In this document: positions 12,315 to 50,860 of the stretch, piece by piece | Layout: every line of letters begins with the position of its first letter | Numbering within the stretch: position 1 is the first letter of the stretch | From: Thelephora terrestris | Taxonomy: Eukaryota; Basidiomycota; Agaricomycetes; Thelephorales; Thelephoraceae | Direction of reading: 5' to 3' | NCBI GenBank assembly: GCA_015956445.1 | Contig: WIUZ02000003.1 | Span: 2,046,001-2,110,000, forward strand | Length of the DNA: 64,000 nt | Translations under genes and position numbers: made by a program | Notes under the pieces: generated by a model | What the model saw: the letters and a program-made list of their open reading frames with translations, nothing else | Databases searched by the model: none | Told to the model about the DNA's origin: nothing

Positions 12315-13245
12315 TGTGGGCTACCTGTCAGGGCCACTCTTCGCCCTTCAGGTACCAGTGCTGTTGGCGAGTCGCAACTCCAACCAACAAGAAACAATGG
12401 GGCAAAGGGGGAACGACGTCCCTATATCCACCCAAAGACTACGTGGTCCAAAACGCGATGGACGAGCGTTCTCCGGTAGGTTGTCCGAATTCACAGCAGG
12501 AGTGCCGAGCCTCTATCAGATCAATCCCTATCTTCTTCTGAGGGCAGAGATAAGAGCCCGAGGATGGCGCCTCAAACTGGTGCTTGATTAAGAGAGCGGC
12601 GAGGAACTCCTTTTCGTAAGCGCGTTCGCCGATTCTTAACGCAAGGCTGAGAGAGAGAGGAGAGCGAACGGGTTCAGAGAGTTACTCGATAAGCTCTTCA
12701 GTGGCCTACAGCAAATACACCGATGCTGCAAGGAGAAGAGGACTTCCCGAGATTTCAAAGATGGGGAGTCCTCAGCTACTTCTACCGGTACTTATATAGG
12801 AGAGTGGCCGGGACATAGATAACCCTATCTAATAATAACTCGGAGTAAAGAAGGGCCGAGAGTAAGCTAGAACAGTAAGCGGCCCGGGTCATAGAATAGA
12901 AATGATAAAGGAATGACTAATGGGTCAGGGTTCGTGAGAGAATAAGAAAGGGGTCATGACGTCGTGTGGGAAAGGAATGACAAAGGATAATATCACATGT
13001 GAAGACAAACCAATGAGAGGACGACGCGTCAGCTCGTCCGATCGGGACAACAAAAGACCGAGTGGGGCTTGAATGGCGAGGGCGAATGTATAGGAAGCCT
13101 GGACCGGTGAAACGATGGTCCGATCCAATGGCGAATAGGACGCGAGCGCTGTCGATGGTCGGATAAAGCGTAGTGCGAACCGGCCGTTGGATCCATCAAA
13201 CTCCCTTCTTCGTAAACCAACACTTCCACCAACCAACTACTCATC

Positions 13246-15952
13246 ATGCCCATGATCTCCGACCGTATCTTCCGTGCTGAGAACAGCACTGCCACCATCG
13301 AGTCTGCCGATCCTCGGTCCGTGCAGAACAAGGGCTACTTTCTGCCGAACGCCAACGTGGCATACCCTAGCTACCGAGAGGCGCGTTGTCACGCGTCACC
13401 GTTTGCTGGCAACAACTGACAACGCTTTCGCAGATCTTCGCAGCCGCCGACAAGGTGGACGCTCGACAGCTGGAGGCAACGATAGCCAAGCCTCCCAGCT
13501 ATTTGACTATGGACGACGAGTTGTGGTATCACAACTTGATCGACCACAAGCTGCAGGAGTCGATGCGAGGGGTCACGTTCAACACCGAGTTGCGAATGCC
13601 ATACGAGACTCCTGTGGCTTCGTCGCTGTGGGGGCTCCTGCGAATGGGGATCTACGACTTGGGGAACGGGGAAGGAAGGTGGCCTGGAGCGACTCGCTCC
13701 CAACACTACACAGCTGCCGTGGGTCACCGCCTTTGGTTCCTATTGAGGACGGAACAGAAAGCGGTGAGTCGGTCTGTGCATCCCGCTTGTGGGATAACAC
13801 TGATGGACTTGTAGACACTGGGGGCAAGGGGTCAAATACCTGGTGGGTACATGCTGAACAAATTGTGATCACAGTCAAAAAGTGATCACAATGTGCCCAG
13901 TGGGGGAAATCTGAATACATTCAAAATGTGCCTGGCCATGTGAGTCCAATGTGTCCAGTGGGCACATTTTGATTGTGATCACAATGTACCCATCAATGTG
14001 ATCTCAATGTGCCCACTGGGGACATTTTGATTGTGATCACAATGTACACATCAATGTGAACTCAATGTGCCTGCTGTGCACATTTTGATTGTGATCACAA
14101 TGTTCCCATCAATGTGTTCTCAATGTACCCAGCTCATTACATAATAGTTTCTTTCACAATGTTGTCCACAATGTGTCCAGCATGTGGCTGAGCCACTCAT
14201 TCAAACTTCTTTCACAAAGTATCCAGTGATGTGTCCATAATGTCCCCAGGGGGTTCTTTTTGAAGTAATCACAATGTAATCACAATATTGTTCAATTTCA
14301 CCATGAACTTTCAAAGAAATCACTATGTGTATGGCTGCACACATTCTAGACACATCACTGGATACTTTGTGAAAGAAGTTTGAATGAGTGGCTCAGCCAC
14401 ATGCTGGACACATTGTGGACAACATTGTGAAAGAAACTATTATGTAATGAGCTGGGTACATTGAGAACACATTGATGGGAACATTGTGATCACAATCAAA
14501 ATGTGCACAGCAGGCACATTAAGTTCACATTGATGTGTACATTGTGATCACAATCAAAATGTCCCCAGTGGGCACATTGAGATCACATTGATGGGTACAT
14601 TGTGATCACAATTAAAATGTGCCTACTGGACACATTGGACTCACATGGCCAGGCACATTTTGAATGTATTCAGATTTCCCCCACTGGGCACATTGTGATC
14701 ACTTGTTGACTGTGATCACAATGTGTTCAGCATGTACCCACCAGGTATTTGACCCCTTGTCCCCAGTGAGAATGAGCGGCTGAAGCGCGAGGTGAAGGAG
14801 GCGAAGGATGACGCCCGCAGGATGTACTCGGAGGCGTTAGACACGAAGAAGACGCTCTTGCTGATGAACGACACGCTCCGCGTGACGTTTGAGAGCGAGA
14901 TGCTGGCGATGCGCGAGGAACATAACCGGTTGGTCGAATCTTTGAAGGAAAGGGACGACACCATCCAACGAGACCTGATCGAGGTTGACCGACGGCTCAA
15001 CCGTCATCGAAGGGCTCTGAATGAGCTCGACACCAAGGTCGGTGCCACTTCTCCTGGTCTTTACCCAAGAGAGCTCACGCCACTTCTAGGTTGACATGTT
15101 GGACGACGCCTTGCCGTTGCTGGGCGCTCGGGTCGAGTCGATGAGCGAACGGTTGTGCCACTGTCGTACACGTTCGGTGGCTGCGGTTCGCGACGAGTCT
15201 GGAGATGAGTCGATTCCGGATCGGATGGCTTCTCCCATAGGTGGGATGTCGGTTGACATATTTGGCCTGTCCACTGACATCCTTTTTAGCTTCCGATGGG
15301 TCGTATCGCACACCTGCGCATACCGATGGCGGGGAGGAGGTCGTTCGTGAGACGTCCGAAGAGACGGCCGTGAACCCGGTTAGTAGTTCTCCCGAGTTGG
15401 AGTACGCGGGGGAGAACGAGGTGGCCGTTCCGGTTCCGCCTCCGTCGATCTCTCCGGTGCGTGGGCAGCGTTCTATCCGTGCTCGTCGTTGGGTTCCTTA
15501 TCGTGGGGCACTTCGTCCAGCGCACCGCATGCGTCCCAGTAATCCAGACGCTGTCCGCCAGGGTGGAGACATTGAGTCCACTGTCTTATTCCGATGCGAC
15601 GATGCTTCAGTGTCGCGTGGATCGCGGCGAGTTGATTCCGGTGGAGTCCGTCGACGTGAACGGCTTAACCGACCTTACGCTCTTGTCGGTCCAGCGTGCA
15701 GCGGAGGCTGTTTGCCTGGTGGCTCAACTGACCGAGAGAGTGGAGGGCTGGTCAGTCCAGAGGACTCTGGATCAGACTACGGTCGATTCAGCGAGGAACC
15801 GCCTGCGCGCCGAGGTTCAGCTGGTCGCAGCTCATCGTCTGGAGGAAGCTCGGGTCGTCGAGATGGTCGACGAGGAAGTCGACGAGAATGTCTCGGAGGG
15901 GACGGAGGAGGAGATTGCCAGTGCTGAGGAGTACTGGCAGACCAGATCTTGA
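13246..15952 (+). CDS. E1 antisense gene: coiled-coil protein with Cys motif
   Basis: The gene starts at 13246 (MPMISDRIFRAENS) and has several exons. Visible parts are an N-terminal domain with DDELWYHNLI and LWGLLRMGIYDL, a long coiled coil starting NERLKREVKEAKDDARR, a CHCRTR cysteine motif, then a proline/serine and acidic tail. The same order is found in the F-family gene (DDELW, LWYTLQRGIYD, ERLEREVKEAK, CNCKEG), so the two are homologues. Foldback A3 sits in the intron before the coiled-coil exon. Over the last third two long open frames overlap. I do not recognise the family; a structural or nucleic-acid-packaging role is only a guess. Confidence 0.65.
13816..14768. mobile_element. 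CACTG foldback element A3, 953 bp
   Basis: CACTG...CAGTG palindrome flanked by AGA (13813-13815, 14769-14771). The empty site is preserved in E2 near 31280, where the same intron-exon border is uninterrupted; this proves a 3-bp TSD. The insertion sits at the splice acceptor of the E1 gene. Confidence 0.93.
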
Positions 15953-16203
15953 CGGCTAGGGTTTGTACACCTCAGTCCTCGTCCATAGAGTCCGGGCGGA
16001 TTCAACTCCGTCGGTTTGGTAGTCTTGTGTCTTCGCTGTGCGCGCGTGTGTAATATCATCTGTGTCCTTGTCTGTGCTCCTTGATGACGTGTGAGTCGTG
16101 ATAAGGGAAACGATAAGATAAGAAAGGGGTATAGGTAAGGAAAGTGGTCGAAAGTTGGGTGCGAAAATGGTTCAAAAAGAAGTTAAAATTCAGCACGCTG
16201 ACA

Positions 16204-17839
16204 CTACCCTTGCGATTCTTCCGGAACAGCTTGTTGCCAACAAGGAAGTAGTCTGTGGCTTGGCGAATGAACTGCCAGTAGTCGTGGTCAGAAAGGTCTG
16301 GAGGGCGCTCCAGGTCGGATAGGAACCTCTGTATCACGACCAGCCGTTCTTCGCGACAGAGGCCTTTGGGAGACTGGGGGATCGCGGCATCAGTCTCAGA
16401 ATCCGGCGAAGAGGATCGCGACGGGGCGGCAGAGTCGTCGGGAGGTTCTGGAGAGGGTCGAGGGGAAGAAGAGGAGGCATGCAGAGCTGGTTCGGGTTCA
16501 ATGGCGAATAGTATAGAAGGTGCCGGGTCTAGGGGGGATCGAGGTGTGTTGACTTCAAGGAAGAATCCTGCGCCGAGGTCTATCCACTCTTCTAGTTCGT
16601 CCGGATCGTCGGGAGGTGGATCCTCAGGGGCGCGAGGACAACGGGAGAGACCATCAGCTCCGGTGTGCTTGTCAGCGGGGACGTGGACGAGTTCGAAGTC
16701 GAAGAGCAGGATGGCGGATATCCATCGGTTCACGGCATCGTTGGGATGGAGCGTAGGGTTATTGAGCATCCCTTTGATAAACTTGGCATCCATTTCCACA
16801 GTGAGTTTCTTCACGCCGATGGTGTAAATCTGTGTCTGCTTGAGTGCGCGAAACAGCCCAAAGAGCTCGAGCTTGGCCTGAGAGTATCGCGACTCGCGAT
16901 CGTTGAACGTGATGGACCCGAATTGACTGGGGTAGCGCTTGCCGTCTTCACCGACCTGAAGGAGAATGAAACCAACACCGTTCATGCAGGAGTCGACGGC
17001 TAGGATGACTGGGCGTTGCGACTCGTAGTCGATAGGGCGTAGAGCTGGTGAGTTTACGATCGCAGCCTTGAGGTTCTCGATAGCTGCCAACTGCAGGGGT
17101 CTGATTTCGAAGGGTTCGTCTTTCCGTGTTAGCTGGATGAGGGGCCTTGCGACGAGAGTGTAGTTCTTGATGAAGATTCAAAGGACTCCACAGGTTCCCA
17201 GAAAAGCTCGAACCTCTGAGACATTCGTCGGGACTGGCCAGTCCTGGATGGCCTGGATTCACGAAGGATCCGCGATACGACCTTCGTAAGTACAGATGTG
17301 TCCAAGGATGTCGGCCTGAGGTACTCCGATGAAGGCCTTCTTCCCGCTAAACGTAGCCCCGTAGGACTTGACATGCTGGATGATCCGGTGGACTGCTTGG
17401 AAGTGCTCCCAGACGAATCGTCGAATGCCTGGGTTTTCGGGGATGGTCTTGTACGTTCCGTCGGGAAGCTCGTATCGCGACTTTGGGCCTTTGATGGGGA
17501 CGTCGTCGGCGAAAGGCTGGGTCCAGTGCGGGATTTCGGGTCGAAGAATGTGGGAGACGTCTCCCTGTAGCACGGCTGGGGAGTTGGTCCAACCCATCGG
17601 TAGAACTGTGAGTTGGAACGCGCCAAGGGGAGTGTTGAACGTGGTCATGTCGCGAGAGTCGGGATGAAGCTGGCGCTGGTCGAAGGAAACGTATAGGTCA
17701 AGCGTGGTGTAGATGGAGCGACCAGCGAAGTCTTCGGCAACCACATCAGTGTAGGGAGGCATGGCAGTGTTCTTGATCGTAACGGCGTTGAGAGGCTCCA
17801 GGGAATGGACCAGACGTAAGGACTTCCCATCCTTCTTGT
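16204..17839 (-). mobile_element. Gypsy fossil G1: RT C-terminal part, RNase H, start of integrase
   Basis: Minus-strand coding remains of a Ty3/Gypsy polyprotein. Going along the minus strand from 17839 there is the rest of reverse transcriptase (palm and thumb, with AFQLTVLPMGWTNSP and ADDVPIK in the place of the catalytic block), then RNase H (VILAVDSCMNGVGFILLQV, SRYSQAKLELFGL) and a proline-rich linker, then the first residues before the integrase zinc finger. E1 cuts it on the downstream side and foldback C on the upstream side. The copy is broken in several places and is old compared with the insertions it hosts. Confidence 0.88.
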
Positions 17840-18958
17840 CACTGGGGGCAAGGGGGTACTTACCCAGTGGGTACATTGTGAGTTCATTGTGGGTTTTGAA
17901 ACCATTCGCCCAGTTGTTACCCACCAGGTACTTTTTGGGTATTTTTTGAAAGATACCCATCAATTCGCCCGCATTTTACCTACTGGGTACATGGTGGGTA
18001 CTTTGTAAAAGTACCCACTCAGGAACCCAGTGGGTATTTTTTGAGCGAAACCCCTGGGTTCTTTCACAATTTACTTTCCAATGTGCTCATCACAAACTTG
18101 AGCCACTCGTTGAGAGTTCTTTCACAAAATACCCACCAATCTGATCAAAATGTACCCAGTGGGGTTTTTTCAAAGAACTCACAAAGAACTAACATTGTGG
18201 CTCAGTTTTACCACAAACTCTCAAAGAACCCATTGAGTATCTGGTTGAGTACATTGTGATCAGATTGTCAGGCCGACGCGACCTCTACAGTTCGATAACA
18301 CTCTTGTTATCCAAACCTATCACACTTAGGGGTCAAACACACAGTTATAACCCTATTGCAAACCTAGGGATATCGGAAGTCTCTTCACGGACTAGATTGG
18401 ATAAGAGGAGAAAGAAGGAGACAAGGGTCTTCAGGCACTCTTGCTCTAAGCACACAGCAGTAGAGGTCACGGAGAGTCTGATGATAACAAATCTAAGGAG
18501 TACAGGCTAAACTACTCGGAGTATATATACTACTTAGATTTGTGATGTGACCGTTACATGTAACTATACTAATGATACAAACACAGACAAACATGGTCCG
18601 TGCACAGCACTGCATGGTCTGTGCGTTACGTGGTGACTAATGCTACAAATTATCAGCTGATAAACGAAAGTGTGGCGGCCAATAGCAATTTGAGAGCATT
18701 ACAGAGCAATTACAAAGCATGACGTATCCTGAGAATGTTCGGAAGGAATGTGGGTATGGCTGACTAACAGCCAATAGTAAAAGGGGAGCATATGACTAAA
18801 GATAGGGGCATATGATGTCATGTGGGTCATGCGCAGTAAACAATAGAAATGATGACTCAACTCCTGAGTCGTGGAAGGGGCGTGGCGTTTGGTATATAAC
18901 CAAAGGGGGTTGGATGACTGGTCTCCCAACAAACCCACCTTTGTTACACACAGCCAAC

Positions 18959-20757
18959 ATGCCTCGTGCTTCTACTCGAAATCCCACCCGTCGTTCTTCC
19001 TCCTACTCTCCTGTCACTGGGGGCAGGGGCACCTGGAATCAGTGATTACATCTTGATTACATGGTGAGTTCATGTGCACTTTTCAATAATTGTAATCGCC
19101 GATTCCAGGTTGATTACATTTAAAATGTTACCTTGACATGTAATCCAACTGTTGCCACCAACTCCATTTGAAATTTCCTCAAGATGTTCCCAAGCAATGT
19201 TTCCTGAATGTGCCCAGTGGGTACATTGTGGAAACATCTCATGTTTTTGAGTGCATTTAGATTACATCTCGGACGATTGAAGAACATGCTGATTACATTG
19301 CAATATCATTTTTGCCGACAGGTCAAAAACATCTCAGAAACATTTGTCGAGAACATTTCAAATGTAATTGGTGAACATTGGTTGGATTACATGTCAAGGT
19401 AACATTTGAGATGTAATCAACCTGGAATTGGCGATCACAATTATTGAAAAGTGCACATGAATTCACCATGTAATCAAGATGTAATCACCGATTCCAGGTG
19501 CCCCTGCCCCCAGTGTGTACAGGAGAGTAACTTCAACATCGACCGCTTCTCCCATGCCCGTCGGGATCCTACCCGCCCTTATCCTACTTTGGGAGCCGTT
19601 ATGGACCGGACCGCCACCGCCGACCCTAATGAGGGGTTCTCTGATTTAGGTGGGGGCCCTGCTTGCGAATTCCGATTTAGGAAACCAAGCTAACTCCTTT
19701 TAGGTTTCAGGGACTTTCTCCAAGCTGCTCGAAGGGTGTCTCGGCGCAAGTTGGCGCGCATCGAGACTAACCCTTATGCGAACGAACTCCTTAATAGGGG
19801 TGTTGAGTTCGTGACCGAGACCAACGAGACCTTCAACTCCGTGTTGGAGGCCAGCGTTCTCCATACGGGGAACGTTGGGTCCATGCTGATGGACGAAGTG
19901 GCTCACGTCAACGAGCGCATCGATGGTCGTCGCGAGGAGATAGAAGCCTTGGAGAATTGGAAAGAGGATATGCAAGGTGTCATTCATGGGCAGGAAGATA
20001 GCGTTGTTCGGCAGGGGGCCGATATCGATTTGTTGAAAGTAAGAAAGTTTGGGTCAGGAGTAATTGACCTTTCTAACTCAAACTTTCTTTTAGGGAGAGG
20101 TGTCCACTCTCAAGGACTTGGTCCGGGCCCTGGTTACTAAAACCGGAGAATTGGAGGACGATAAGGTAAGGGGTAGGGGTTGAAGATAATTGATCTCTTC
20201 TAACCCTATTCCTTTAGGTTCGCCTTACTCGTCGTGTCTCCGAGTTGACCGGAGAAGTCCGGGATCTCCAGAGGAGGTGTAACGAGCCGGAGGTCCGAGT
20301 CGAAGAAGAGGAGGGGGAAGAAGTTCTGTATCGGGCCGGGTCGCCGATAATTCCCAATCGGGCTGAGTCGCCACCCGCTCGTTTGTTGGTTCGTCACGAG
20401 AACAGGTTGGTTCCTGTTGATGATGAGGTTATCGAGATTGGGAGCGACGAGTTCTATCAGAACTTGGGAGTCGTTCGTCGGGACACCCCTCGTCCTGGAT
20501 TCGTATCTACTCCTTGGGGTAGTCGCCGTCAATGGCCTGCTCTGGAGTACGATCCGTATGCCGAGTTCGTTCCTGATAGCGAACCGAACTCTGACACAGA
20601 GCTTCCAGATTATGACGACTTGTCGGACGTAGACCCGAACGAGATCCGGGAGCAGAACTGGTTGAATGAGGAGTTGGTGAGATCGGCATTGGAAGTAGTA
20701 CAAAGGATTCGAAGAGATATTGATGTCAGGAACATGGTATTTTTAAACTTTTTATAA
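18959..20757 (+). CDS. D1 antisense gene, interrupted by a foldback and by F1
   Basis: Starts MPRASTRNPTRRSS at 18959, about 60 bp after a TATA box (GGTATATAAC, 18891-18900). Foldback IV-a lies in the first exon and F1 lies at the very end of the gene. Between them are a long coiled-coil exon (HVNERIDGRREEIEALENW), a short exon and a last exon with acidic, proline-rich sequence. The uninterrupted version is in D2 (34562-35825). Function unknown. Confidence 0.6.
19015..19515. mobile_element. CACTG foldback element IV-a, 501 bp
   Basis: Starts CACTGGGGGCAGGGGCACC and ends with the complement; TSD TGT (19012-19014, 19516-19518). The empty site is seen in D2 near 34612. Both arms contain TTACAT/ATGTAA repeats. 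Same length as copy IV-b. Confidence 0.92.
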
Positions 20758-23700
20758 CACGCTCTTTCGTCGAACTCTTCTTACCAATTCTTATGTTTGA
20801 ATGATTCACTCTCCTTATCCTTCACACCAATCATTCGAAACACACACACGCGCGTACTATTCCCAGCGAATCCACAACGAGCTATACAAAGCACTATCCA
20901 AGTCCATCAAAAATCGACACTATCTACGGCAGGCCGGAAGGTCACCAAACGTCCATCCCGGAGATCGTAGTGCTGACCCCTCCTCGCAAGGACCTCCCCA
21001 AACATGGCGTCACCATCTTCGGCACTCAGCTGAACGACTAGTTCAAGCCGATAGGAAGAGATGCCTTCGAGCGGACCGATCAGCCTCCCAGATGTCACTG
21101 AACTCTGGAACACCTGGTCCCACATCGCCATCACCGGGTGACTGCTCGACAGCACTATCGACGTAGTCGGCAAGCGACCCTCCGTCTCCCTCGTCGGACC
21201 CCTGGGTGGGATCCTGTCTTGCGAGTCGTAGCTGGTGGCGAAGCTGGATCTCCGACTCGACCTGTCGGTAGGGACGGTGGACCCGATAGCGGAACTCTCG
21301 TCCTCCACCTCGACCAGACTGGTCACCATCCGACTCAACTGGTCGAGGATAAGGATTAGCCGATGGAGCCATGCGATGAGCAGGACGGCGTCGAGAGCGT
21401 TTGCAACGTTGCCCCTTAGTCACCGGACGTACCTCGGCGACCCTCGGAGCATCTTCGGCTCGGTCAACCTCCATGACCTCATCCTCGATCTTCACCAACT
21501 GATGGATCGGCTGCAATACACAGCGCCCACAGTTCTCCTTGTCGGAAGCGGCCAAGGTAGAAGCCGGACCTGGAGTCGGAACGGGAACCGCGTTCTCGAT
21601 TGGAGGCGTCGCATAGGACGACGGGTTAGGCGATGGCAGTACCACCTCGTCGGCGTACTCCAACTCGAACGGAACCTCGGCTGTCCCCTGACCAACCAAC
21701 TTGGGGCCCTCCTTACAGTTACAGGTTTTGTCCTGCAAGGACTCGACCTGCGCTGACAACACAGCCACCACGTTTTCGAGTTCTTCGGTCTAGAAGAAGT
21801 GTCAGCTTCCCTCATTTCGTCTTCGAGATGAGGAAAGCTACCTTTTCATCCCTCCTGGCCAACGCCCCCTTGATGTTGTTATCCCTGACCTTCAGACCGG
21901 CGATCAACTCTTGATGGTTAGCCACCATTGCCTCCAACGCCTCGTTCGTCCCCTGTTGGAAGGCCGCCAAGGTCTCCTTCAATTGAAGACCCTCTGCTGA
22001 TAGACGAAGGACGTCTGCCTTCGCTTCCTTTACCTCCCGCTCCAATCGTTCAACCTAGGCAGTCTGATTAGTCGAGAGTCATACTCGAATATTCAGACAG
22101 AAAACCTACCCGGCTTTCTCCCTCCCGAACGAGCGACCACAAGAGGCTAGTGGAAGCGGTAGCATGACGGACGGCCCGAGGAACGGTAGCTCCGTGCTCC
22201 AATAGGTCCTGATCGTAGATTCCCCTCTGCAGGGTGTACCAGAGCTCCTTCTTGATCGGATGCTCCAACTCTCCGAACCTACCCCTCATCTGGAAAGCCA
22301 CCTTCTCGGCGATGATCGTACGGACCCAGAGCTCGTCATCCCAGGTCAACCCCATCAAATGAGGCATCGTCTCCCTGAGACGTTCGGCGTCCACTTCCGT
22401 GACGACCTCCAAGATCTAGAAGCCGTTAGCTGGACATCAACGCCCAAAAGAACGTAACCTCTACCTAGAGGAAGGCGTTAGTGCTAGCACACAAAGCTCT
22501 AGGTCTCCCCCATACCTGGTCATCCGTGGTATAGGGAGTCCCAGCCGCACAGGCGTAGGTCTTGCGAGCGGCGGCACGACGGTCAATACGGGAGATGGTG
22601 GAGATACCATTGGCGACTTTGTAGGTATGGTTGTTGGGGAAGGACATGTTTTGGTAAGATGATGGGGAAGTTGTTGGTGTTGCTGATCAAGGATGGCTCC
22701 AAGAAGACGTCCTTCTTATAGCCTAGATCGGTGATCCTTCACGTGACCTACCTCGACGAACCTCATTGGTCCGGGTCACATCAACTTCCGCCCCTGTACC
22801 ATCATCGTCGGCTTACTACATCAAGCTGACACCTCGGCCCGCGGGACGGCCTTGGAAGAACTTCGCTCCGGAACGCCTAGAACGCGCGCGCACTAAAAAT
22901 AGGTCTCAAGACCCTGATGACCCCTTTATGACATCACGAACCCCTTTTACGACCCCTCATGACTTTACGATTACGATCAACCCTGGACCCTGATCACACA
23001 CGTGGACAGTCACATCACAGTCTCCTAACCGGAGGAAGGACTCGCCGCTATTCGGAAGCATCGCCTTAGGATTCTTCTGGTTAGCCCAGCGCATGTGGAG
23101 TAGCCGTTAGCGTGAAACGCCGGCGAATCTGTAATCCCTCATGTCCCATGAGTCTAGGCCTGACCTCCTCATGTTCGGACGTACGTTGAGGTTGCCACTA
23201 GTCCGTGATGCTGTTACCGCCTACAGACAACAAGGGATGTTTGCATGGCTCTACTCCCGAATCCGCTGGTACAACTATGTAAAGGGAGATTGCCACCTGA
23301 CCCTTGGGTGTGATCCCCAGGTACGAACTTTCACGACCCCTATGCCCCTATTTCTTTTAGGACTAGTGTTATCTTTACCCCTATGTTTCATGCGGACATT
23401 CCTTATCTTTTATGCAATCCTTCACACGCTAGTAAGGCCCTTTGTCCTTTATCTTCCCATGCGTCACATTTGTTCGCTTCCCTTACTTAGCGTTCTCACA
23501 CTCCTTATCTCCCTTTGTTCTGGACTTGATAAGGGTATATTAGGGTATTGACGTCATGGCCACTCCTTTAGTATAAGTAGCAACTGTGGCTGTATCGTAG
23601 TACCTTAGTTTTGTTACCTCAGGAAATCCTCTGCCCTTCTCAGCCCAGTTGCAGTTAAGGACAAGTCAGAGTTTCTTGTTTGATCCAAGACATCCCCATC

Positions 23701-24024
23701 TGCTCTCCCTCCCGCTCTGCGCGTCAACTGCGCCTCGTAACTATAGACTCTCAGCAGTCATATTAGAACACCTCGAGCGTCCAGTCGATCAACTGGTGGA
23801 GTCATCAATCCTGTTGTAGGGATCAACCCTTGCTTGTTAAACCGAACGAAGTACGGTTTAGGTTGGGTTTCTCTTTAGGATTTCGACCTGACTTGTAGTG
23901 ACCTCGGACAACCTACCGGAAGAATAGAGACGTGATCGTTCTCTCACAAGCTAGTTGGACTAGTGAGTACTCTGCGGAGTCGGCTCAGTGCACTGGTAGT
24001 TGTTGGGGTAGAGTGGCCCTGACA
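20724..24024 (+). mobile_element. F1: TG...CA element with antisense gene, uninterrupted, 3,301 bp
   Basis: Starts TGTCAGGAACATGG and ends GAGTGGCCCTGACA; TSD ATTGA (20719-20723, 24025-24029) in the tail of the D1 gene, whose empty site is seen in D2. A plus-strand TATA (GTATAAGTAG, 23571-23580) leaves about 445 bp to the right end, like R-U5. The gene is on the minus strand, antisense to this promoter. This is the cleanest F copy. Confidence 0.88.
20907..22647 (-). CDS. F1 antisense gene: coiled-coil protein with CNC motif
   Basis: Starts MSFPNNHTYKVANG at 22647, downstream of a minus-strand TATA (GGCTATAAGAAGG, about 22711-22723). Exons follow at about 22412-22110 (MGLTWDDELW, LWYTLQRGIYD), 22060-21840 (coiled coil, ERLEREVKEAKADVLRL), and 21790 to 21043 (CNCKEG, then a proline-rich and acidic region ending FLSA). 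A second open frame (20907-21338) overlaps the last exon in the +1 register and extends beyond it; it contains MWDQVFQSSVTSGRL. The layout equals that of the E gene. No known family recognised. Confidence 0.65.
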
Positions 24025-24801
24025 ATTGATTAGATAACTCTTTTGTACTGTTGGCTTCCAATGAATCTTCTTTCTATTTTGTCTATTGCGTGTGATCCAT
24101 GAGTCGTAAAACATAATGATTTTCATAAGTCCAATCCAAGGGTCAGATTAATAAGCCGGTTGACTTCTGCGAGAGGTCAGCGCGCGACGCTTATTAATAC
24201 ATCCCTTGTTGTCGGTAGCCTGAATATCTACTAGTCGTCCAGGGGCAACGGAGGGCCAGGTAGGGGGGATCTTCGTATGAAGGTCCGCCGGTACATGTTC
24301 ACGTATTATACCTCGGGTCTTCTGGGGTATCTTGACTAGTAGCACGTTCCACGTATTAGACTTTGAGTCGTTAAGCATAGGGCATGTTGCATAATAAACA
24401 GTTTACCGCCGTGTTTAGGGCAGGGCACCAACTGACTTAGTGGTGATGAGGCGTTAAATAAAGGGAATGAAAGGGGGTAAATGGCGAAATCATCACACAG
24501 ATCAGTGGGTACTTTATGAAAGAACTCTCAATGAGTGGCTCAGGTTTGTGATGGGCACATTGGAAAGTGAATTGTAAAAGAACCCAGGGGTTTTGCTCAA
24601 AAAATACCCACTGGGTTCCTGAGTGGGTACTTTTACAAAGTACCCACCATGTACCCAGTGGGAAAAATGTGGGCGAATTGATGGGTATCTTTCAAAAAAT
24701 ACCCAAAAAGTACCTGGTGGGTAATGACTGGGCGAATGGTTTCAAAACCCACAATGAACTCACAATGTACCCACTGGGTAAGTACCCCCTTGCCCCCAGT
24801 G

Positions 24802-29734: not shown

Positions 29735-29782
29735 GTTTGGTAAGATGATGGGGAAGTTGCTGGTGTTGCTGATCAAGGATGG

Positions 29783-38843: not shown

Positions 38844-38913
38844 TTGGACTAGTGAGTACTCTGCGGAGTCGGCTCAGTGCACTGGTAGTTGTTGGGGTAG
38901 AGTGGCCCTGACA

Positions 38914-39238
38914 TAAGGTAGGCGTCCACTTCGTCAATCTCCACCGTATTGGCCGAGATCTTCTTGCTGGTGACAATCTCCCGAACGTGCTTTCGTAGGT
39001 CGGGAGCGACGGCTAGGAGTTTGCGAGCACTGAGGTTGACCTTGGAGTCGAGCACGCGATGGACTATGTCACTCGTCTTGACGTTGTGTTCGATCGGGGC
39101 TTGGAAGCGGTACTTGGAATCGTCGGGGGGGTGGTCTAGGTGGATAGGAGACTGGTCGCATCGGTCCTTGGGGGCGCTGTGTCTGGCGATCTCCCACTCG
39201 AGCTCCAGGCTTCCCGGAGGTGTTGGCGGGGGTCGTCT
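38914..39238 (-). mobile_element. Gypsy fossil G1: gag end / pre-protease region
   Basis: The minus strand codes for KYRFQAPIEHNVKTSDIVHR and LSARKLLAVAPDLRKHVREI, a block typical of agaricomycete Gypsy polyproteins just before the protease. G1 is not recognisable to the right of 39239. Confidence 0.82.
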
Positions 39239-39739
39239 CACTGGGGGCAGGGGCACCTGGAATCGGTGATTACATCCCGATTACATGGTGAGTTCATGTG
39301 CACTTTTCAATGATTGTAATCGCTGATTCCAGGTTGATTACATTTTAAATGTTACCTTGACATGTAATTCAACTGTGCCCACCAACTCCATTTGAAATTT
39401 CCTCAAAATGTTCCCAAGCAATGTTTCCTGAATGTGCCCACTGGGCACATTGTGAAAACATCTCATGTTTTTGAGCACATTTAGATTACATCTCAGACGA
39501 TTGAAGAACATGTTGACTACATTGCAGTATCATTTTTGCCGACAGGTCAAAGACATCCCAGAAACATTTGTTGAGAACATTTCAAATGGAATTGGTGGAC
39601 ATTGGCTGGATTACATGTCAAGGTAACATTTGAAATGTAATCAACCTGGAATCAGCAATTACAATTATTGAAAAGTGCACATGAACTCACCATGTAATCA
39701 AGATGTAATCACTGATTCCAGGTGCCCTTGCCCCCAGTG
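39239..39739. mobile_element. CACTG foldback element IV-b, 501 bp
   Basis: Same family and length as IV-a; TSD TCT (39236-39238, 39740-39742). It lies exactly where recognisable G1 sequence stops and G2 starts, but the matching triplets say that G1 and G2 were already joined before it inserted. Confidence 0.92.
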
Positions 39740-41267
39740 TCTGATGGTCGCGCAACGGAAGGACGCTCCTGGGGAAGGTTCGCGAACCGAGTGAGCGGGC
39801 CGAAACCGTACAGACCCGTTCAAGAGGACGCCAAACAAGGCAAGACCGAGGGAAGGGAGCGAGTATGAGCTAACGCCATCACGCCCCAACCCAAGACCAG
39901 ACATTCGAGACCGGAAGGAGGACATCACAAGCGGGCTAGGAAAGGCAAGAAAATCAGTAGCGAGAAGCGGGATCAACTACGGGCTGAAGGGAAGTGCTTC
40001 CAGTGTGAACAACCAGGTCACTCACAACGAGATTGTCCTGAGTTGAACACGCTCAAGCCACCTACCGTTAGGATGAATAATGTAGACGTGGCCCGTTTAG
40101 AACGTTTGGCTAAGGCAAAAGGGAAGGCCGACTTACAAGTGGGACGAGTCTCGCTGGAGGGTGGCAACAGACCGGGAACGGTCGATGATGCCACGCCAGG
40201 CATGCACGCGGCTTACTGGTGCTGCGTGAGCGCCTGGGGACCAGACGAGAGATGGTTAAATCCTGAAACTCGACACGAGAGCATATTCGGGATCTATGAA
40301 TATGACATGGGCGTCGGGAGCGTAGTCGAGATTACTCTTTACGACGCACCCAAGTTCGGGATCCTTGAAATCGATGCGGAACGCTTCCAGGACCCACATT
40401 TCGAGATCACAGATGTAATAGACCCCGATGCGAACACTGTTGGAATAAGTGTTCGGGAGGGCGGGTTCTGGGATTGCAAAAAGAAATACGTAAGCTGGGA
40501 GTGGCCAGCATTGGCTTGGTTAAGAAAACTAGTAAAGGATCAGCTTGAATTCGAAAAAAGTGAGGAAACCATAAGCGTCCAGCGGACATTTATCGGTTAT
40601 GGCCTGCACATCGAAGGGACAGATATCCACTTCGAGATAACGCACCCCGAAGTCCTAGGAGACGCGTTAAACATCGGACGTATCCTACGTATAATGCGAT
40701 CGGTCCGGGACGTAGACATAAGAGGGCGGTCACCGTTATTCTGGGACTGCCGCCTCAACAAACGTCAACGGCGCATAACGGGCACGTTGAAACTGAGTGC
40801 TAGGTCAGTTCGACTACGTAAACCTAAGACGGAGGGCGTGAATGTACTAGAGAAGACCACCATGCGCGTAAAGGATCAGTCACGACGGGTACCAGAGCCC
40901 ATCGTAGTCCTAGCGCGAATCAACGGTAGTGAAGTCCGCGCACTAATAGACACAGGGTCGATGGCCGACTTCATCTCGACTACGGTAGTCGAACAGCTGA
41001 GACTCAAAAAGGAAGTCTATGCTAAACCACTCTCAGTACAGTTGGCGGTCCATGGATCGCGATCCAAGATAAATTGCGGGACACGGGTCAACTTCAAGTA
41101 TCAATCAATCGACTGCGAAAGGCGATTTGACATAGCCAACTTAGATAACTACGACGTTATACTTGGGACACCGTTTATCTACCAACACAAGGTTGTGGTA
41201 GGGCTAAACCCCCCTTGCGTCGTTGTGGGATCAGCGAAACCAACTGAAATGGAGGGAACCGATGTGA

Positions 41268-42220
41268 CACTGGGGACGAGGGGACAAATACCCAGTGGGT
41301 ACATGCTGAACACATTGAGATTACAGTCAACAAGTGATCACAATGTGCCCAGTGGGGAAAATTTGAATACATTCAAAATGTGCCAGGCCATGTGTATCCA
41401 ATGTGCCCATGGGGCACATTTTGATTGTGATCACAATGTACTCAGCAATGAGATCTCAATGTGCCCAGTGGGGACATTTTGATTGCGATCACAATGTACC
41501 CACCAATGTGATCTCAATGTGCCCAGTGGGCACATTTTAAATTCTTTCACAAAGTGTGCAGCAATGTGTTTCCAATGTACCCAGCTCATTACATGATGGT
41601 TTCTTTTACAATGTTGTCCACAATGTGCCCAGCATGTGCCTGAGCCACTCATTCAAACTTCTTTCACAAAGTATCCAGTGATGTGTCCATAATGTGTGCA
41701 GCCATATACATGATGATTTCTTTGAGAATACATGGTGAAATTGAACAATATTGTGATTACATTGTGATTACTTCAAAAAGTACCCCCTGGGGACATTATG
41801 GACACATCACCAGATACTTTGTGAAAGAAGTTTGAATGAGTGGCTCAGGCACATGCTGGGCACATTGTGGACAACATTGTAAAAGAAACCATCATGTAAT
41901 GAGCTGGGTACATTGGAAACACATTGCTGCACACTTTGTGAAAGAATTTAAAATGTGCCCACTGGGCACATTGAGATCACATTGGTGGGTACATTGTGAT
42001 CGCAATCAAAATGTCCCCACTGGGCACATTGAGATCTCATTGCTGAGTACATTGTGATCACAATCAAAATGTGCCCCATGGGCACATTGGATACACATGG
42101 CCTGGCACATTTTGAATGTATTCAAATTTTCCCCACTGGGCACATTGTGATCACTTGTTGACTGTAATCTCAATGTGTTCAGCATGTACCCACTGGGTAT
42201 TTGTCCCCTCGTCCCCAGTG
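41268..42220. mobile_element. CACTG foldback element A5, 953 bp
   Basis: TSD TGA (41265-41267, 42221-42223); tips are CACTGGGGACGAGG, a variant of the usual GGGGGCAAGG shared in part with A7. It lies between protease and reverse transcriptase of G2. Both arms and the spacer match the other A copies. Confidence 0.92.
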
Positions 42221-44911
42221 TGATCACCATAACCTCAGCGGCAGCAGACCTATTCGACGATGGTATAGAAGGAATCCGGAAACAGTTAAGGTCTGAAGCG
42301 GATGACCTATGTCCCGATACCTCGAAGACGGCTCTCCCCCCGCTAAGGGCGGTTAATCACACCATCCCGCTGATAGACACAAAGAAGGTCTATCAATTCA
42401 GACCGTCTAAGTGCCCAGAGGCGTTCCGTGAGCAATGGAGAACGAAGAAGAACGCTTACCTGGAAACAGGACGTTGGCGTACCGCGACAGGACACAATGC
42501 GATACCCTTGTTGATGATCCCCAAGGTATCCCCAACGAACGACAAACCGGGTTTGAGAACCGTGTTCGATAAGAGGGAGCAGAACGACAACACTTACAAG
42601 TTGGCGTCCCCGCTTCCCGACATTGAGGAGATCCTTCGCGAAGTATCTAAACACAAGTTCAGAAGCCTGATAGATGGAAAGGATGCCTATGAACAGATTC
42701 GCGTAATACCCGAACACGTCAGTCGAACGCTGTTCACAACGCCCGACAGAACAATGGAAAGTTTAGTGATGCAGCAAGGAGACTGTAATGCGGGCGCCAC
42801 TTACCAGACGTTAATGAATCACATCTTTGCGTCCTATATAGGCGTGTTCATGTTTGTCTATCTAGACGACATTATAATATTTTCGGACTCTGTCGAAAGA
42901 CATGTTGAGCACATCCGCACGGTGTCCAACGTTTTAAGACGAGAGAAACTCTACCTTGGACCGAACAAGATGCAGTTTTTTGCTGAGGAACTGAAGATAT
43001 TAGGACACATCATAGACTCGAAGGGAATCCGGATGGACCCGCACAAGGTTGACAAGGTATTGAATTGGAAGACCCCTACCAATAAGGACCTATTGCGCAG
43101 CTTTATCGGCGCCATTGGGTTCCTGGCCCCGGACTGCAAGGGGATCAGAATCCCAATGGGACAATTGTCGTCACTAACAGCGGAACTTCGACCATGGCGG
43201 TGGGACGCTACCGCCCAACGGTCGTTCGACGAAGTCAAACGAATCGTCCACTCGCATCGCGATGACCGTCGGAAGGCCCTGAACTATTCAGAAGGGTCGG
43301 AACCCATCTTTGTTACCACGGATGGATGCCTAACTGGAGGCGGAGGATTTGTTAGCCAAGGGAAAGATCCCAAAACAGAGAACGTTGTGGCATTCTGGTC
43401 CGGGAAATGGAACAGCGCGCAACAAAATTACCCTGTGCACGAACAGGAGCTCCTCGCGCTTGTGGAAACCCTAAAACGTTTTCGAGGGATCCTCCATGGC
43501 GCGAAGTTCACGGTCAGGACGGACCATCGGGCCCTAACACACTTCATGAAACAGAGGAATCTGTCTGCGCGACAACACAGATGGTTAGACATCTTGAGTG
43601 AATTTGATTTCGAAATCGAATACATACCGGGTGAAACCAACGGCTTTGCAGACGCTTTATCACGGATCTATAGTGATGAAGCCCCCAGTGTCGCGCAAGC
43701 GGAAAGCGAGCTTGTAGATGACAAGGATGAACTGAAGACATATCAGTCAATGAGGGTCTCACCGGTCTACGTTGAGACTTACCTGCTGTCTCTCGTGAAC
43801 ACGGAGTTCAGGAGATCATCCCGATTAGCGAACAAACCGAGTCCAAATTATAAAGAAACTCAAAATCGCAACCAAACGAAGGCTCGCAACAACTCCCGCA
43901 ACAACGAGACAGTGACCAACGTTGAAGAGACAGATGCCGGGACAAAAAACGATCCTCCCGAAGGCCAACGAGACCCCGTGGTGACGCCTCACAACCTGGA
44001 CGCCAGCCTACTGGGAGTCTCGAGTGGCTTAGGGGTGGAATTTCCGGAGTGCATCCGAAACAGATACGAGGAGGACTCGTTCTTCACGCCAATCCTGCGG
44101 GATCCCAGTGAATTCACGAACTTCAGGGTGGAAGATGGAATAACTTACTTCGTATCGGAAGGCGTGCGAACAATAGCTATCCCGGACGTAAAGGTCGGCA
44201 ACCAGAGCATAAGGGAGATCCTGATCCGCCAAGGACACTCGATATTAGCTCATCTGAGCGCCGAAAAGACGGCCACTTACCTGAGGGAACAGGTTTGGTG
44301 GAAAACAATGGCCAAAGATATTGATGAATATTGTCGGACGTGTCGTGTCTGTGCGATAAGCAAACCGCTTAGTGGTAAACCTCATGGGAAGTTGAAGACC
44401 ATGCCGGCACCAACTCGACCGTGGCAATATATCAGGATCGATTTCGTGGGCCCCTTACCTGAGTCCACCAACCGAACGGGGAGCTATGACATGATCTGCG
44501 TCATAATAGATCACCTGACCTCGATGGTGCACCTAGTGCCGACGCGGCAGACGTACCGGGCTTCCGATGTAGCGGAACTTATGTTCGATTCAATTTACAA
44601 GCTACACGGACTACCCGAGCGGATTATCAGTGACCGTGATTCACTGTTCACCTCTAAGTTCTGGAGACGGCTACACAAGCTGCTGAACACGGAACTCCGT
44701 ATGTCATCGGCTTATCACCCTCAGACTGACGGAGCCACTGAGCGCGCCAATCGTACGATCACTCAAATGATCCGGCAGTGCGTCAGTCCCGATCAAAAGG
44801 ACTGGGTAATTAAGCTACCTGCTGTCGAGTTCGCAATAAATTCGGCATGGTCGAGCACGACTGGGTTCTCCCCGTTTCAGCTTAATTACGGTCGGAATCC
44901 CAGCTCTCTGA

Positions 44912-45841
44912 CACTGGGGGCAAGGGGTCAAATACCCAGTGGGTACATGCTGAATACATTGAGATTACAGTCAACAAGTGATCACAATGTGCCCAGTGGG
45001 AAAAATTTGAATACATTCAAAATGTGCCTGGCCATGTGAATCCAATGTGCCCAGCAGGCACATTTTGATTGTGATCACAATGTACCCACTGGGGACATTT
45101 TGATTGTGATCAGAATGTGCCCATCAATGTGATCTCAATGTGCCCAGTGAGGACATTTTGATTGCAATCACAATGTACCCATCAATGTGTTCAAAATGTG
45201 CCCAGCTCATTACATAATGGTTTCTTTCACAATGTTGTCCACAATGTCTCCAGCATGTGGCTGAGCCACTCATTCAAACTTCTTTCACAAAGTATCCAGT
45301 GATGTGTCTAGAATGTGTACACCCATATACATAGTGATTTCTTTGAGAGTTCATGGTGAAATTGAACAATATTGAGATTACATTGTGATTACTTCAAAAA
45401 GAACCCCCTGGGGACATTATGGACACATCACTGGATAATCTTTGAAAGAAGTTTGAATGAGTGGCTCAGCCACATGCTGGACACATTGTAGACAACATTG
45501 TGAAAGAAACCATTATGTAATGAGCTGGGCACATTGTGAACACATTGATGGGTACATTGTGATTGCAATCAAAATGTCCCCACTTGGCACATTGAGATCA
45601 CATTGATGGGCACATCCTGATCACAATCAAAATGTCCCCAGTGGGTACATTGAGATCACATTGATGGGTACATTGTGATCGCAATCAAAATGTGCCCACT
45701 GGGCACATTGGATTCACATGGCCAGGCACATTTTGAATGTATTCAAATTTTCCCCACTGGGCACATTGTGATCACTTGTTGACTGTGATCACAATGTATT
45801 CAGCATGTACCCACTGGGTATTTGACCCCTTGCCCCCAGTG
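44912..45841. mobile_element. CACTG foldback element A6, 930 bp, flanks unmatched
   Basis: A-type palindrome, slightly shorter than its sisters. The triplets beside it are TGA and TTA and do not match. It lies just after the integrase core of G2, and the usual integrase C-terminal domain is not seen beyond it. Recombination between two A elements with loss of what lay between is the likely cause. Confidence 0.85.
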
Positions 45842-46488
45842 TTACTCACCGGCTCCGCGTGATCTACCTCGTGGACGTGGAAGGGGTCACGTCAGAGGAC
45901 GAGGAGGAGGTAACAGAGGTACGAGGGGACGGGAGGTACCTGGCGGTATCGGCAACAATCGAAGGAACCGTCCCTCGACTCGAGCGGGAGATGACATTGC
46001 GCCAAACGCATCGGGAGCATCTACCCGTAACACCCGGAACACTGTTTCCATCGACTCGACTCCAACGTCATCAGACAGCTCGTCCACTGGCTCCGGATCG
46101 GTCCCGACCTCCTCCCGTGGGGAAGGGAGTCAATCCGCCTCTGATAGCACCAGGGATACACTCACAGCTGCCAATCAGGCTGAGGGGTCCAGGTTCCGAG
46201 TCGCCCAGAGCGAGAGTGGCGAGGAGTCCATCGCCGACAGCCTCGACTCGATCAGCTCGGACCCTGCTTACCTGATGAGCAGACCAGACATCCCGGGTGA
46301 CGAAATCGAGAGCGCGCTAATGGCTAGAGTCCACGTATTGCAGGGACGCATGGGCGATATCACCGTGGAGGAAGACGATGATATGAGGGACACCGAGGGC
46401 GAACCTGCCAGCGAAACCGAAAAGAACTAGGGAAGGGGTCCAAAAATCTTTTATTTTTCACAAATTTTTCTTTCTAACTACCCTACGG

Positions 46489-47793
46489 TGTCAAGCAGTA
46501 GTGTCGGTCACTACTGGGAGGGCGAATGTAAGCATAGCGCCACCCCGGCAGCGGCTGATATGCCCGTAGATAGTTTTCCCGAAGTGATCCCGAGATCACA
46601 GAACTAACCCTTAACCCTTTCCCAAAATGTTCCACTCTCTTTCGCATTCGTAGTGTACCCGAGTCCTGATTACCTAACCTAACCTACAGTATATAAGGTG
46701 CCTAGGTAGAACGGAATACAGGGACACTTTCGAACTGCTCTTTTCTCCGTGTGTTTACCTCTCTCGGCACAACTCTCGCGAACCGGAAATCTCTGAGCTC
46801 ACTCCCGAGTCGTGTCCCGAGCCTGACACTGGGGACAAGGGCACAAATACCCAGTGGGTACATGCTGAACACATTGAGATTACAGTCAACAAGTGATCAC
46901 AATGTGCCCAGTGGGGAAAATTTGAATACATTCAAAATGTGCCAGGCCATGTGTATCCAATGTGCCCACTGGGCACATTTTGATTGTGATCACAATGTAC
47001 TCAGCAATGTGATCTCAATGTGCCCAGTGGGGACATTTTGATTGTAATCACAATGTACTCAGCAATGTGATTTCAATGTGCCCAGTGGGCACATTTTAAA
47101 TTCTTTCACAAAGTGCTCAGCAATGTGTTCACAATGTACCCAGCTCATTACATGATGGTTTCTTTCACAATGTTGTCCACAATGTGTCCAGCATGTGCCT
47201 GAGCCACTCATTCAAACTTCTTTCACAAAGTATCTGGTGATGTGTCCACAATGTCCCCAGGGGGTACTTTTTGAAGTAATCACAATGTAATCACAATATT
47301 GTTCAATTTCACCATGTATTCTCAAAGAAATCATCATGTATATGGCTGCACACATTCTGGACACATCACCAGATACTTTGTGAAAGAAGTTTGAATGAGT
47401 GGCTCAGGCACATGCTGGACACATTGTGGACAACATTGTGAAAGAAACCATCATGTAATGAGCTGGGTACATTGTGAACACATTGCTGAGCACTTTGTGA
47501 AAGAATTTAAAATGTGCCCACTGGGCACATTGAAATCACATTGCTGAGTACATTGTGATTACAATCAAAATGTCCCCACTGGGCACATTGAGATCACATT
47601 GCTGAGTACATTGTGATCACAATCAAAATGTGCCCACTGGGCACATTGGATTCACATGGCCAGGCACATTTTGAATGTATTCAAATTTTCCCCACTGGGC
47701 ACATTGTGATCACTTGTTGACTGTAATCTCAATGTGTTCAGCATGTACCCACTGGGTACTTGTGCCCTTGTCCCCAGTGTGAGGGTTCACACA
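46489..47793 (+). repeat. 3' LTR of G2, split by foldback A7
   Basis: Starts TGTCAAGCAGTAGTG after a purine-rich stretch near 46430. It holds a TATA box (AGTATATAAGGTG, about 46689-46700). A7 interrupts it at 46827; a few bases after A7 (TGAGGGTTCACACA) probably finish it, though the right boundary is uncertain because no second LTR copy is in the window. The start TGTCA matches the ends of the D, E, F and H elements. Confidence 0.65.
46827..47779. mobile_element. CACTG foldback element A7, 953 bp
   Basis: TSD TGA (46824-46826, 47780-47782). Tips are CACTGGGGACAAGGGC. It lies inside the G2 LTR, downstream of its TATA box. Confidence 0.92.
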
Positions 47794-48555: not shown

Positions 48556-48575
48556 TGTCAGGGTTGTGGGCCTGC

Positions 48576-49198
48576 TTACTGTTTGGGGAGCGCTAGAGGA
48601 TTAGCGGATGGATGAGGGGTGTCGGGTCGGGTTTTGAATGGGGTACCAGGTGTAGAGATGAGGGGAGGAGGAATATCAAGCGAGAGTGGCGACTCTGTTT
48701 GATAGGGATGAACGGGGGAGTGATAGTCCTGACAAAACTGAGTCAGTTGTTGCACGAAAGGTTCGAAGTCTTGGTCGCTAAGGCGTTCGAAGTTGACGAG
48801 GTATTCTATAACCGAATAAGGTAGTTCAGTTGTATTTCCCACCACAGAATGATGATAGCCGGAGAATGGGTGTGGATATTAGTAGTGAGATGAACGCGTG
48901 GGTTTGGGAAGTAGAAGGCTGGACTTATACTGAAGTAGACAGTAGCTAAGACGCTTTCGGTGAAGTCAGAGTTCCAAAGGAACTGATGATCAGCACCCAA
49001 TAAGAAGGGAGGAGTGGTGACTCCGGCGTCGAGGGCTGCAAAGGGTCTGTAGTAGGGGAAATGGGTGAGTAAACCGGCGGTTCGGTTTACTTGAAGGCTT
49101 CTGATGAGTTTATACTCCCAGATAGACCTCCTAGCGTCAGGGACTATTGGCCGTTGAACTGGACTGGTAGAGAGGAAAGGGTTCGGGGTGCTGAACAT
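48576..49198 (-). CDS. Minus-strand frames in the R-U5-like part of H
   Basis: Downstream of the LTR-like TATA box there are two protein-like open frames: 49198-48806 (starting MFSTPNPFLSTSPVQRPIV, with WEYKLIRSLQVNRT) and 48845-48576 (ERLSDQDFEPFVQQLTQFC, then a proline-rich end). They could be parts of one short coding region of the sense transcript. No family is recognised and they may not be genes. Confidence 0.35.
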
Positions 49199-49858
49199 AC
49201 ACTGGCAGGAGGATTCCTGCTAGAATGAGTCAGAAGGGATAAGACGTGAGGAGAATTCCTCAGCTTACTTTGTTTATTCAAGTTATGGGTAGAGGAGTAC
49301 AGAAGAGATTGAGAATGGGGAAAAGAAAGGAGCGAACGCTCTTCCTTATATACCCAGTCCTCTACATGATTAGTAATCCTACAAGGAGTCAAGCACGAGT
49401 CAACATGGTCTGTGCGTAGTTTAGGGCAGGGTGACGGAGTCAGAGAAGTGGGACTTAGGACGACTGATGGTAGGTACGGCTAGGGGAACAATAGGGGATG
49501 AGTCAATAGTAGTTAAATGGGGATTTCTCGTGTTTCATGGTAGTAATAGAAGGACACTGGGGATTTCCCATGATCGATGGGGAATTCTCAGGTTTCATGG
49601 TAGCAATAGAAGAGTGATGGGGGATTTCTCATGATTGATGGGGATTTCTCCGGGATTGATGAGATCGATTGGGGCTGAGGGTTCGTTTATCCTTTTTGGG
49701 AGTTAATTGGATAATGGTTCATTGTCTTCCCCTTTTGGCGTCTCATTGAGTCAGGTGTATATAATCCAGGGGGATTATTGGTCTTTTCCTCTCATCGTCT
49801 CTTTTCCACTCCCACAAACATCAACCACTCTTCCCTCTTATAAACAACTCCTCCTACT

Positions 49859-50756
49859 ATGTCTTCCACCGTTCAGGCCACTGCTCTCAACGCCAACGCG
49901 GTCCCCTTCGACTTTTCTCCTTCCTTCGAGACCGACCGACCTTATGAGGTCGAACAACATCTCTATGACACCCCCGCCAATATCGCTCATGACAACCAAG
50001 TCGCTGTTGACTTCCTGTCGACTCACCGAGCTCCTCCTCAGTTCTGGGAGCAGGCCGGATACGAAGATCCCAACCGTACGGTTATGCGCACTCCCGGCGT
50101 TCCCCTTTTGTTGGATGCTATGGAGAGGGAGAGGGAGGATAGGATCTCGAAGTTGGAAAAGCGTGTGGACCTTATGTATGTCATCGTGAACAGTTTGAAC
50201 AAGGACTTTACTCACTTTGCCTTGGAACATTGGGGACCATTCCAGGCATCTCTCTTCCGATATTTCGGACATCAATGCCACGGGGCTTATTGCACCGACC
50301 CCCCTTGCAAGTCCCCAGTCATCCCTTCGCCACCGCCAGGATCAGGGCGTTCCTCTCCCTCCATCCCCTCCCTGGAGTCCTGCCCCAGTTCGTCAGATGG
50401 TGGAGAGGTCCCACAAGAAGAAGAACCGCAAGAGTCCGATGACTCGTTCTGGTCAACGTTGTCGTCCCTCCGACAAGTCACGGCAGGTTCGGATGAAGTT
50501 GAAAGTGGAGGTAGCGGGTCTCCAGGACCGCTATGGGTTCGCGTTAGTGAGCGAGGCGTTGACGGACGTAAAGAAGGAAATGGAAGATAGTTTGTATCAT
50601 GACGTGTTAGGGTGCAGGGAGTGTTGGAGGGATCCGGCGACTCAAGTAATGTCGTACTGTCCGCAGAGCGTGTATAACCCTCACCATTTTGCTCATCGTT
50701 GTCTTCCTTTTGGGAAGGCTTGTGCCTGCGAAGAAGACCCTTTCGTCTTGGTTTGA
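49859..50756 (+). CDS. H antisense gene with overlapping +1 frame
   Basis: Starts MSSTVQATALNANAV at 49859, about 95 bp after TATA (GTATATAATCC, 49757-49767). The first frame runs to 50590: an N-terminal domain with VAVDFLSTHRAPPQFWEQAG, a short coiled coil (EREREDRISKLEKRVDLM), a Cys/His patch (HQCHGAYCTDPPC), then a proline/serine-rich and acidic tail. A second frame, 50217-50756, overlaps in the +1 register and ends in a Cys-rich segment (CRECWRD; CACEEDPFVLV). The pattern copies that of the E and F genes. Function unknown. Confidence 0.62.
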
Positions 50757-50860
50757 GCTTGTAGTTTTTTGTATTCCCTTTTGTACCATTAGCACTGCGA
50801 ATACGACCAATATCTTGAATTATTCGTGTGATCTTGTCTACTATGTCACGCGTTCGTGAC

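Follow-up and report, generated by a model that had tools for sequence, protein, structure and literature searches.

Long terminal repeat (LTR) retrotransposons with giant terminal repeats, or with genes additional to gag and pol, are among the closest described counterparts of a group of units that we analyzed in a 64,000-nucleotide stretch of the Thelephora terrestris genome (GenBank assembly GCA_015956445.1, contig WIUZ02000003.1, positions 2,046,001 to 2,110,000; this whole stretch is called the window below, and coordinates refer to it). The window holds seven complete units of four families, named E, F, D, and H, that have TGTCAGG at one end and CA at the other and, in the three families present in two complete copies, contain a predicted intron-bearing gene under purifying selection. 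The rice Gypsy element Retrosat2 is described as having LTRs of more than 3.2 kb with the ends TGTCACACCC-GGGCGTGACA (PMC3485330). As portrayed in the same source, Retrosat2/RIRE8 (rice Gypsy, LTRs of ~3 kb) resembles the units in its giant LTRs, its TGTCA...TGACA ends, and its extra, fast-changing open reading frame (ORF); it differs in that this frame, ORF0, is internal, preceding gag-pol, and does not lie in the LTR, whereas the units show no internal region. Another likeness is to conserved genes that are located near the 3′ LTR and run antisense to gag-pol, namely brtn of the Botrytis element Boty and the antisense ORFs (aORFs) of the plant elements Grande, RIRE2, and Retand (PMC7264820, PMC11963269). 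In these accounts the genes are internal, between pol and the 3′ LTR, whereas those studied here lie inside the LTR-like unit and have several introns. In the window, no gag-pol that could serve as a reference for an aORF-type place and sense was found linked to the E, F, or D gene.

Nonautonomous LTR elements such as Cassandra, Helenus, and Ajax are also comparable, the LTRs of Cassandra holding a 5S rRNA-like gene (PMC10886601); this is, however, presented as a small RNA gene and not a spliced protein gene. HBZ and related genes, known from human T-cell leukemia virus type 1 (HTLV-1), are described as being expressed from antisense mRNA, also in spliced form, that starts in the 3′ LTR, with a product that works in trans (PMC10186651). 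HTLV-1 differs in being a human virus, and HBZ has no homology to the unit genes. Unlike those genes, HBZ has most of its coding sequence outside the LTR. Ginger DNA transposons share with the units TGTNR ends, introns in the gene, and integrase-type insertion, but are described as having terminal inverted repeats (TIRs) of ~40–270 bp, an integrase-like transposase of their own, and the preferred targets CCGG/CCGT or RTATAY (PMC2836005). None of these is found in the units, whose inverted ends (~3 to 8 bp) fall short of the Ginger TIR length. A spliced protein gene within an LTR-like unit appears to be new, as none was found in the open-licence literature searched.

Repeat families were found by self-comparison of the window, and unit ends were assigned by boundary reading. 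As a preliminary description of this DNA had claimed, all seven complete units (E1, E2, F1, F2, D1, D2, and H) run between a TGTCAGG end and a CA end and are flanked by a perfect 5-bp target site duplication (TSD). Their net lengths are 2,925 and 2,933 bp (E), 3,301 and 3,305 bp (F), 2,424 and 2,422 bp (D), and 2,306 bp (H), which agrees with the 2.3 to 3.3 kb given at the time. E1 (12326–16203, + strand, TSD CTACC) is interrupted at the end of intron 2 by a palindromic miniature inverted-repeat transposable element (MITE) at ~13816–14768, and E2 (29783–32715, +, GATGG) is inserted in F2. F1 (20724–24024, −, with its gene on that strand, ATTGA) is inserted in D1 (18266–24497, +, CAGAT), which also contains a 0.5-kb MITE (19015–19515) in exon 1. 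F2 (27816–38913, −, TAAGG) is split by E2, by D2 (33868–36289, +, GTTAA), and by a 2.4-kb palindrome. H (48556–50861, +, GCATA) lies within a 45-bp tandem repeat array that continues on both of its sides. An eighth unit, F3 (1–208, −), is a third F copy truncated by the start of the window; only its end is included, and these 208 bp are identical to F1. Empty sites kept in sister copies prove three of the seven insertions: F1, which lacks the E2 and D2 insertions, has a single GATGG and a single GTTAA, and D2, which lacks the F1 insertion, has a single ATTGA.

When the units are put in a common orientation with the gene on the plus strand, all four families have TGTCAGG at the gene-5′ end, where the first 36 bp of E and F match at 83%; the opposite ends across the four families read CTGACA, CCTGACA, TCACA, and GTGACA. 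The inverted ends are imperfect as well as short, and the TSDs have no common motif by eye. Because TG...CA termini, such inverted ends, and 5-bp TSDs without an evident target motif occur together, integration by a retroviral-type integrase is well supported, and we regard it as close to certain. Neither a reverse transcriptase, the lack of which had been noted earlier, nor a Gypsy-like integrase (rve), nor any other Pfam domain above the cutoff was found in the units, in a scan of 20 unit ORFs (shorter ORFs lay outside it) and three spliced proteins.

At the level of sequence comparison, a spliced gene under selection is well supported in the E, F, and D families. The E2 gene was modeled at 30714–32072 (+; exons 30714–30848, 30901–31230, 31282–31548, 31601–31751, and 31802–32072), the F2 gene at 28171–29734 (−; exons 29603–29734, 29197–29481, 28929–29141, and 28171–28876, the acceptor of intron 1 being uncertain), and the D2 gene at 34562–35825 (+; exons 34562–34748, 34803–35137, 35192–35263, and 35316–35825). 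The model allows GT-AG introns, and doubtful extra exons at both ends were trimmed by hand before substitutions, sites, and indels were counted. Intron 1 of E has GC in E1 and GT in E2. The introns measure ~50 bp, a size that we take to fit a basidiomycete. The E2 open frame continues past the fifth exon to ~32461, where no frame is clearly coding: the ratios of nonsynonymous to synonymous substitution rates (dN/dS) in the stretch after that exon (2291–2690 of E2) are 1.30, 0.41, and 0.26 in the three frames. Gene-model scores on the stated strand versus the other were 153.0–169.3 versus 77.5–84.5 for E, 129.6–130.7 versus 40.7–43.4 for F, and 102.0–108.9 versus 28.7–42.6 for D.

Selection was assessed in stop-free frames of at least 50 codons with at least five substitutions, by re-placing the substitutions randomly among like bases. 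A synonymous excess at p ≤ 0.001 was obtained for five gene-strand ORFs in E, three in F, and three in D, with 36, 28, and 22 ORFs, respectively, tested over both strands. Three ORFs on the other strand of E and one in D also passed; because the gene-model scores favor the plus strand, we read these as shadows of the plus frame. Controls gave no such result, with 0 of 11 for MITE pairs and 0 of 30 for 5′ flanks (frames of at least 40 codons in the latter). Between copies, dS and dN are 0.580 and 0.024 for E (dN/dS ~0.04, 384 codons), 0.411 and 0.062 for F (~0.15, 443 codons), and 0.325 and 0.016 for D (~0.05, 368 codons). None of the 10 indels that separate the E copies, and none of the 18 that separate the F copies, falls in an exon; one of the four in D does, and it was produced by where the D1 MITE was cut out. 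The exons of both E copies, both F copies, and D2 are free of internal stops, and in D1, removal of one TSD copy leaves the reading frame of exon 1 unbroken across the MITE site. Because the exons show a synonymous excess and are spared by indels, and because the palindromic repeats give no such signal, the gene is not a neutral passenger; the decay expected of one is contradicted by dN/dS values of 0.04 to 0.15 in all three two-copy families.

The preliminary description had placed an intron-bearing gene in all four families, which holds for E (+), F (−), and D (+). In H, codon usage in the one copy points to a tentative gene at 49859–50587 (+), coding-like from an ATG at 49859 to ~50206; one frame from ~49850 scores 51.6 bits, the best of six, with the next at 22.8. 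To speak of a gene captured by, or colonizing, the element was an understatement, given strong purifying selection in all three testable families and the gene and ends shared by E and F.

The E and F proteins are homologous (blastp E values down to 6e-31, ~30% identity over ~350 residues), and an apparent coiled coil, as judged by eye, follows a conserved exon marked by the motifs LTxDDELW and GIYD. Since E and F share both the gene and the end sequence, the gene looks like an old component of these elements. D and H share the gene layout with E/F, and profile comparison found no significant link of either to E/F. Matches of the unit proteins to Pfam below the cutoff are scattered, many of them to coiled-coil families, and a search of the PDB with the F protein alone returned nothing below an E value of 0.32. 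For the E exon that is most conserved, AlphaFold, given four sequences, predicted a helical structure with low confidence (mean predicted local distance difference test score of 48).

We lean toward the view, also taken in the preliminary description, that E, F, D, and H are solo LTRs of a Gypsy-type lineage with giant LTRs, each with an intron-bearing, probably antisense, coiled-coil gene; it is the best single reading of the data, and the LTR nature of the units is in itself likely. In its favor are the ends and TSDs of all seven units, the three empty sites, the gene-5′ end common to the four families, the lack within units of direct repeats that could form an LTR pair (a duplication in H aside), the selected gene, the precedent of Gypsy elements with giant LTRs and TGTCA...TGACA ends, and the antisense box of H. 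The lineage would consist of Gypsy-type retrotransposons whose LTRs of 2.3–3.3 kb have been left behind as solo copies. Each LTR would carry an intron-bearing gene, tentative in H, for a protein without known family and with a long coiled coil. This gene would probably be read from a promoter of its own in the direction opposite to that of the genomic RNA, and its antisense position would preserve the introns through reverse transcription. By analogy with HBZ of HTLV-1, the product would most likely act for the element in trans, through RNA or particle binding or through regulation. If the units are LTRs, they would represent a multi-exon protein gene that is kept inside the LTR and selected across families, along with a route by which introns pass through an RNA cycle.

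Several observations weigh against this solo-LTR interpretation. The 64-kb window contains no full-length element or LTR pair, all seven complete copies being single units, so that the parent that had been supposed is not seen there. Searches of viral contigs confirmed no relative of the E/F exon or of a D exon, and prokaryote genomes likewise yielded no confirmed relative of the E/F exon. A single TATA box had been said to point toward the nearer end in all four families, with the gene on the opposite strand. This does not hold: upstream of the gene, E and D have near-palindromic TATA-type boxes that score in both directions, F lacks such a box on either strand, and H alone has an antisense-only box (TATATAAGG). 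No antisense AATAAA-type signal was found near the left end in E, F, or D, and one is present in H.

The probability of at least one TATA-type box per strand before the gene by chance is 0.03 to 0.14. The sole TATA[AT]A match of F is on the same strand as the gene, ~30 bp from the opposite end of the unit, and D and H have TATATAA-like boxes on the gene strand too, within ~100 bp of the ATG. Thus, the units, their TSDs, and the gene in E, F, and D stand as first described, and the one-way TATA box in all four families does not. Retention of introns through an RNA cycle calls for either an antisense gene or an unspliced genomic RNA; the logic by which an antisense gene had been said to explain the introns is sound, and it is on intron retention, not on the TATA boxes, that we infer an antisense gene.

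With regard to LTR pairs, no unit contains a direct repeat longer than 22 bp that resembles one, except for a 77-bp duplication inside H, and units paired around gag-pol with a primer-binding site and polypurine tract were not seen within the window. E1 and E2 form an arrangement that resembles direct repeats around a Gypsy pol, as both face the same way and Gypsy pol pieces lie between them; each is bounded by a TSD of its own, however, and they are independent insertions. F1 and F2, also direct repeats, were rejected as an LTR pair, as each again has its own TSD.

That all seven complete units are single, that introns are retained without any need for an RNA step, and that the gene is selected even though the unit yielded no further gene are all compatible with stand-alone elements that move as DNA. 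Such elements would have one spliced gene and retroviral-type ends and be inserted in trans by a co-resident Gypsy integrase, with help from the coiled-coil protein. A Gypsy pol with integrase domains is present in the window (H2C2 above the cutoff, rve 0.1 bit below it), and integrase-type DNA transposons with TGTNR ends are described (Ginger, PMC2836005). The very short inverted ends argue against this explanation. Solo LTRs, moreover, are the usual source of such an integration signature, and we know of no case, no dedicated search having been made, in which a Gypsy integrase moves a lone unit of this size. On this evidence we consider stand-alone elements possible, though not likely. Somewhat more doubtful is that the units form an element class in its own right and are not relics, with a single spliced, selected gene and retroviral-type ends that are lent to resident Gypsy integrases, and with no polymerase or integrase of its own. 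If the units are not LTRs, they would be a new sort of integrase-dependent DNA element.

The units might instead be ordinary solo LTRs with a captured host gene, the selection signal coming from host paralogues and the copies being passengers. This would accommodate the finding that neutral gene sites differ ~3 to 8 times more between copies than the noncoding flanks do (E, F, and D units, 12326–38913), as if the cores came from older sources. Outside CpG sites, fourfold-site differences are 23% in E, 24% in F, and 19% in D, versus 7%, 3%, and 3% in the 5′ flanks and 7%, 8%, and 3% in the 3′ flanks. Either the noncoding ends are strongly constrained or gene cores have been exchanged between copies by recombination, as in template switching. 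Because the cores diverge more than the flanks, some of the selection signal may have arisen in other copies. A general rule that synonymous sites change faster than introns was rejected: the proportion of differing positions is lower in introns than at fourfold sites in E (9/141 versus 28/120, p 0.00013), marginally lower in F (25/174 versus 37/158, p 0.048), and no different in D (18/123 versus 28/148, p 0.42). Against capture from the host, three families, and probably a fourth, have such a gene at the same place and on the same strand, E and F are homologous both in the gene and in the ends, the exons remain undamaged in each E and F copy, and no E, F, or D gene copy lies outside a unit in the window; we judge this origin improbable. 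Least probable of all are autonomous DNA transposons of a novel kind with the spliced gene as transposase, which selection in the three testable families and the gene and end sequence common to E and F would suit, because these short proteins lack any domain above the cutoff and seem by eye to contain a long coiled coil, the low-confidence helical model of the E exon neither showing nor excluding an enzyme.

The window is rich in other transposons. Gypsy gag-protease and pol-integrase ORFs occupy 39869–45036, and Gypsy pol pieces lie at 16059–17975 (−); a search of viral contigs confirmed no relative of the Gypsy pol. Beyond the stop codon of the Gypsy pol, the stretch at 46489–46830 has a TGTCAAG start and a TATATAAGG box, which suggest the start of a 3′ LTR. 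The CCTGACA at 46822 was rejected as the end of a Gypsy (helper) LTR, as its CA belongs to an inserted MITE with the TSD TGA. Full copies of this palindromic MITE family (~955 bp, CACTGGGG...CCCCAGTG ends, presumably CACTA-like) lie at 13816–14768, 25569–26522, 41267–42221, 44911–45842, and 46826–47780, with a partial copy at 10570–11240. The copies are ~83–96% alike, and four of the five full ones have 3-bp TSDs (AGA or TGA), the copy at 44911 having none. The palindrome in F2 (36416–38843) is perfect, with arms of 1,212 nt that are 100% complementary, a 4-nt center, and TTGGACT on both flanks; it is either a very young fold-back element or an assembly artifact. Three further candidate pairs (51727–58069, 1712–6805, and 8783–13548) were rejected as chance, with no supporting repeat copy.

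A DUF4100 piece lies at 38852–39280 and a KDZ transposase at 3516–4130 (Pfam E value 4e-44), upstream of which a weak CxC cluster match below the cutoff occurs at 2244–3050. ORFs for a fungal-type protein kinase (Pkinase_fungal; 54127–56056) are flanked by a 900-bp direct repeat of 76% identity (51994–52880 and 60488–61384), one copy of which overlaps an ORF with a carboxylesterase match. Finally, a small AT-rich element at 27243–27525 has 21-bp inverted ends (CTGGGTCCAGGGTAGAATAGG...CCTATTCTACCCTGGACCCAG), and the stretch that hosts it resembles, by eye, a Gypsy protease on the minus strand.

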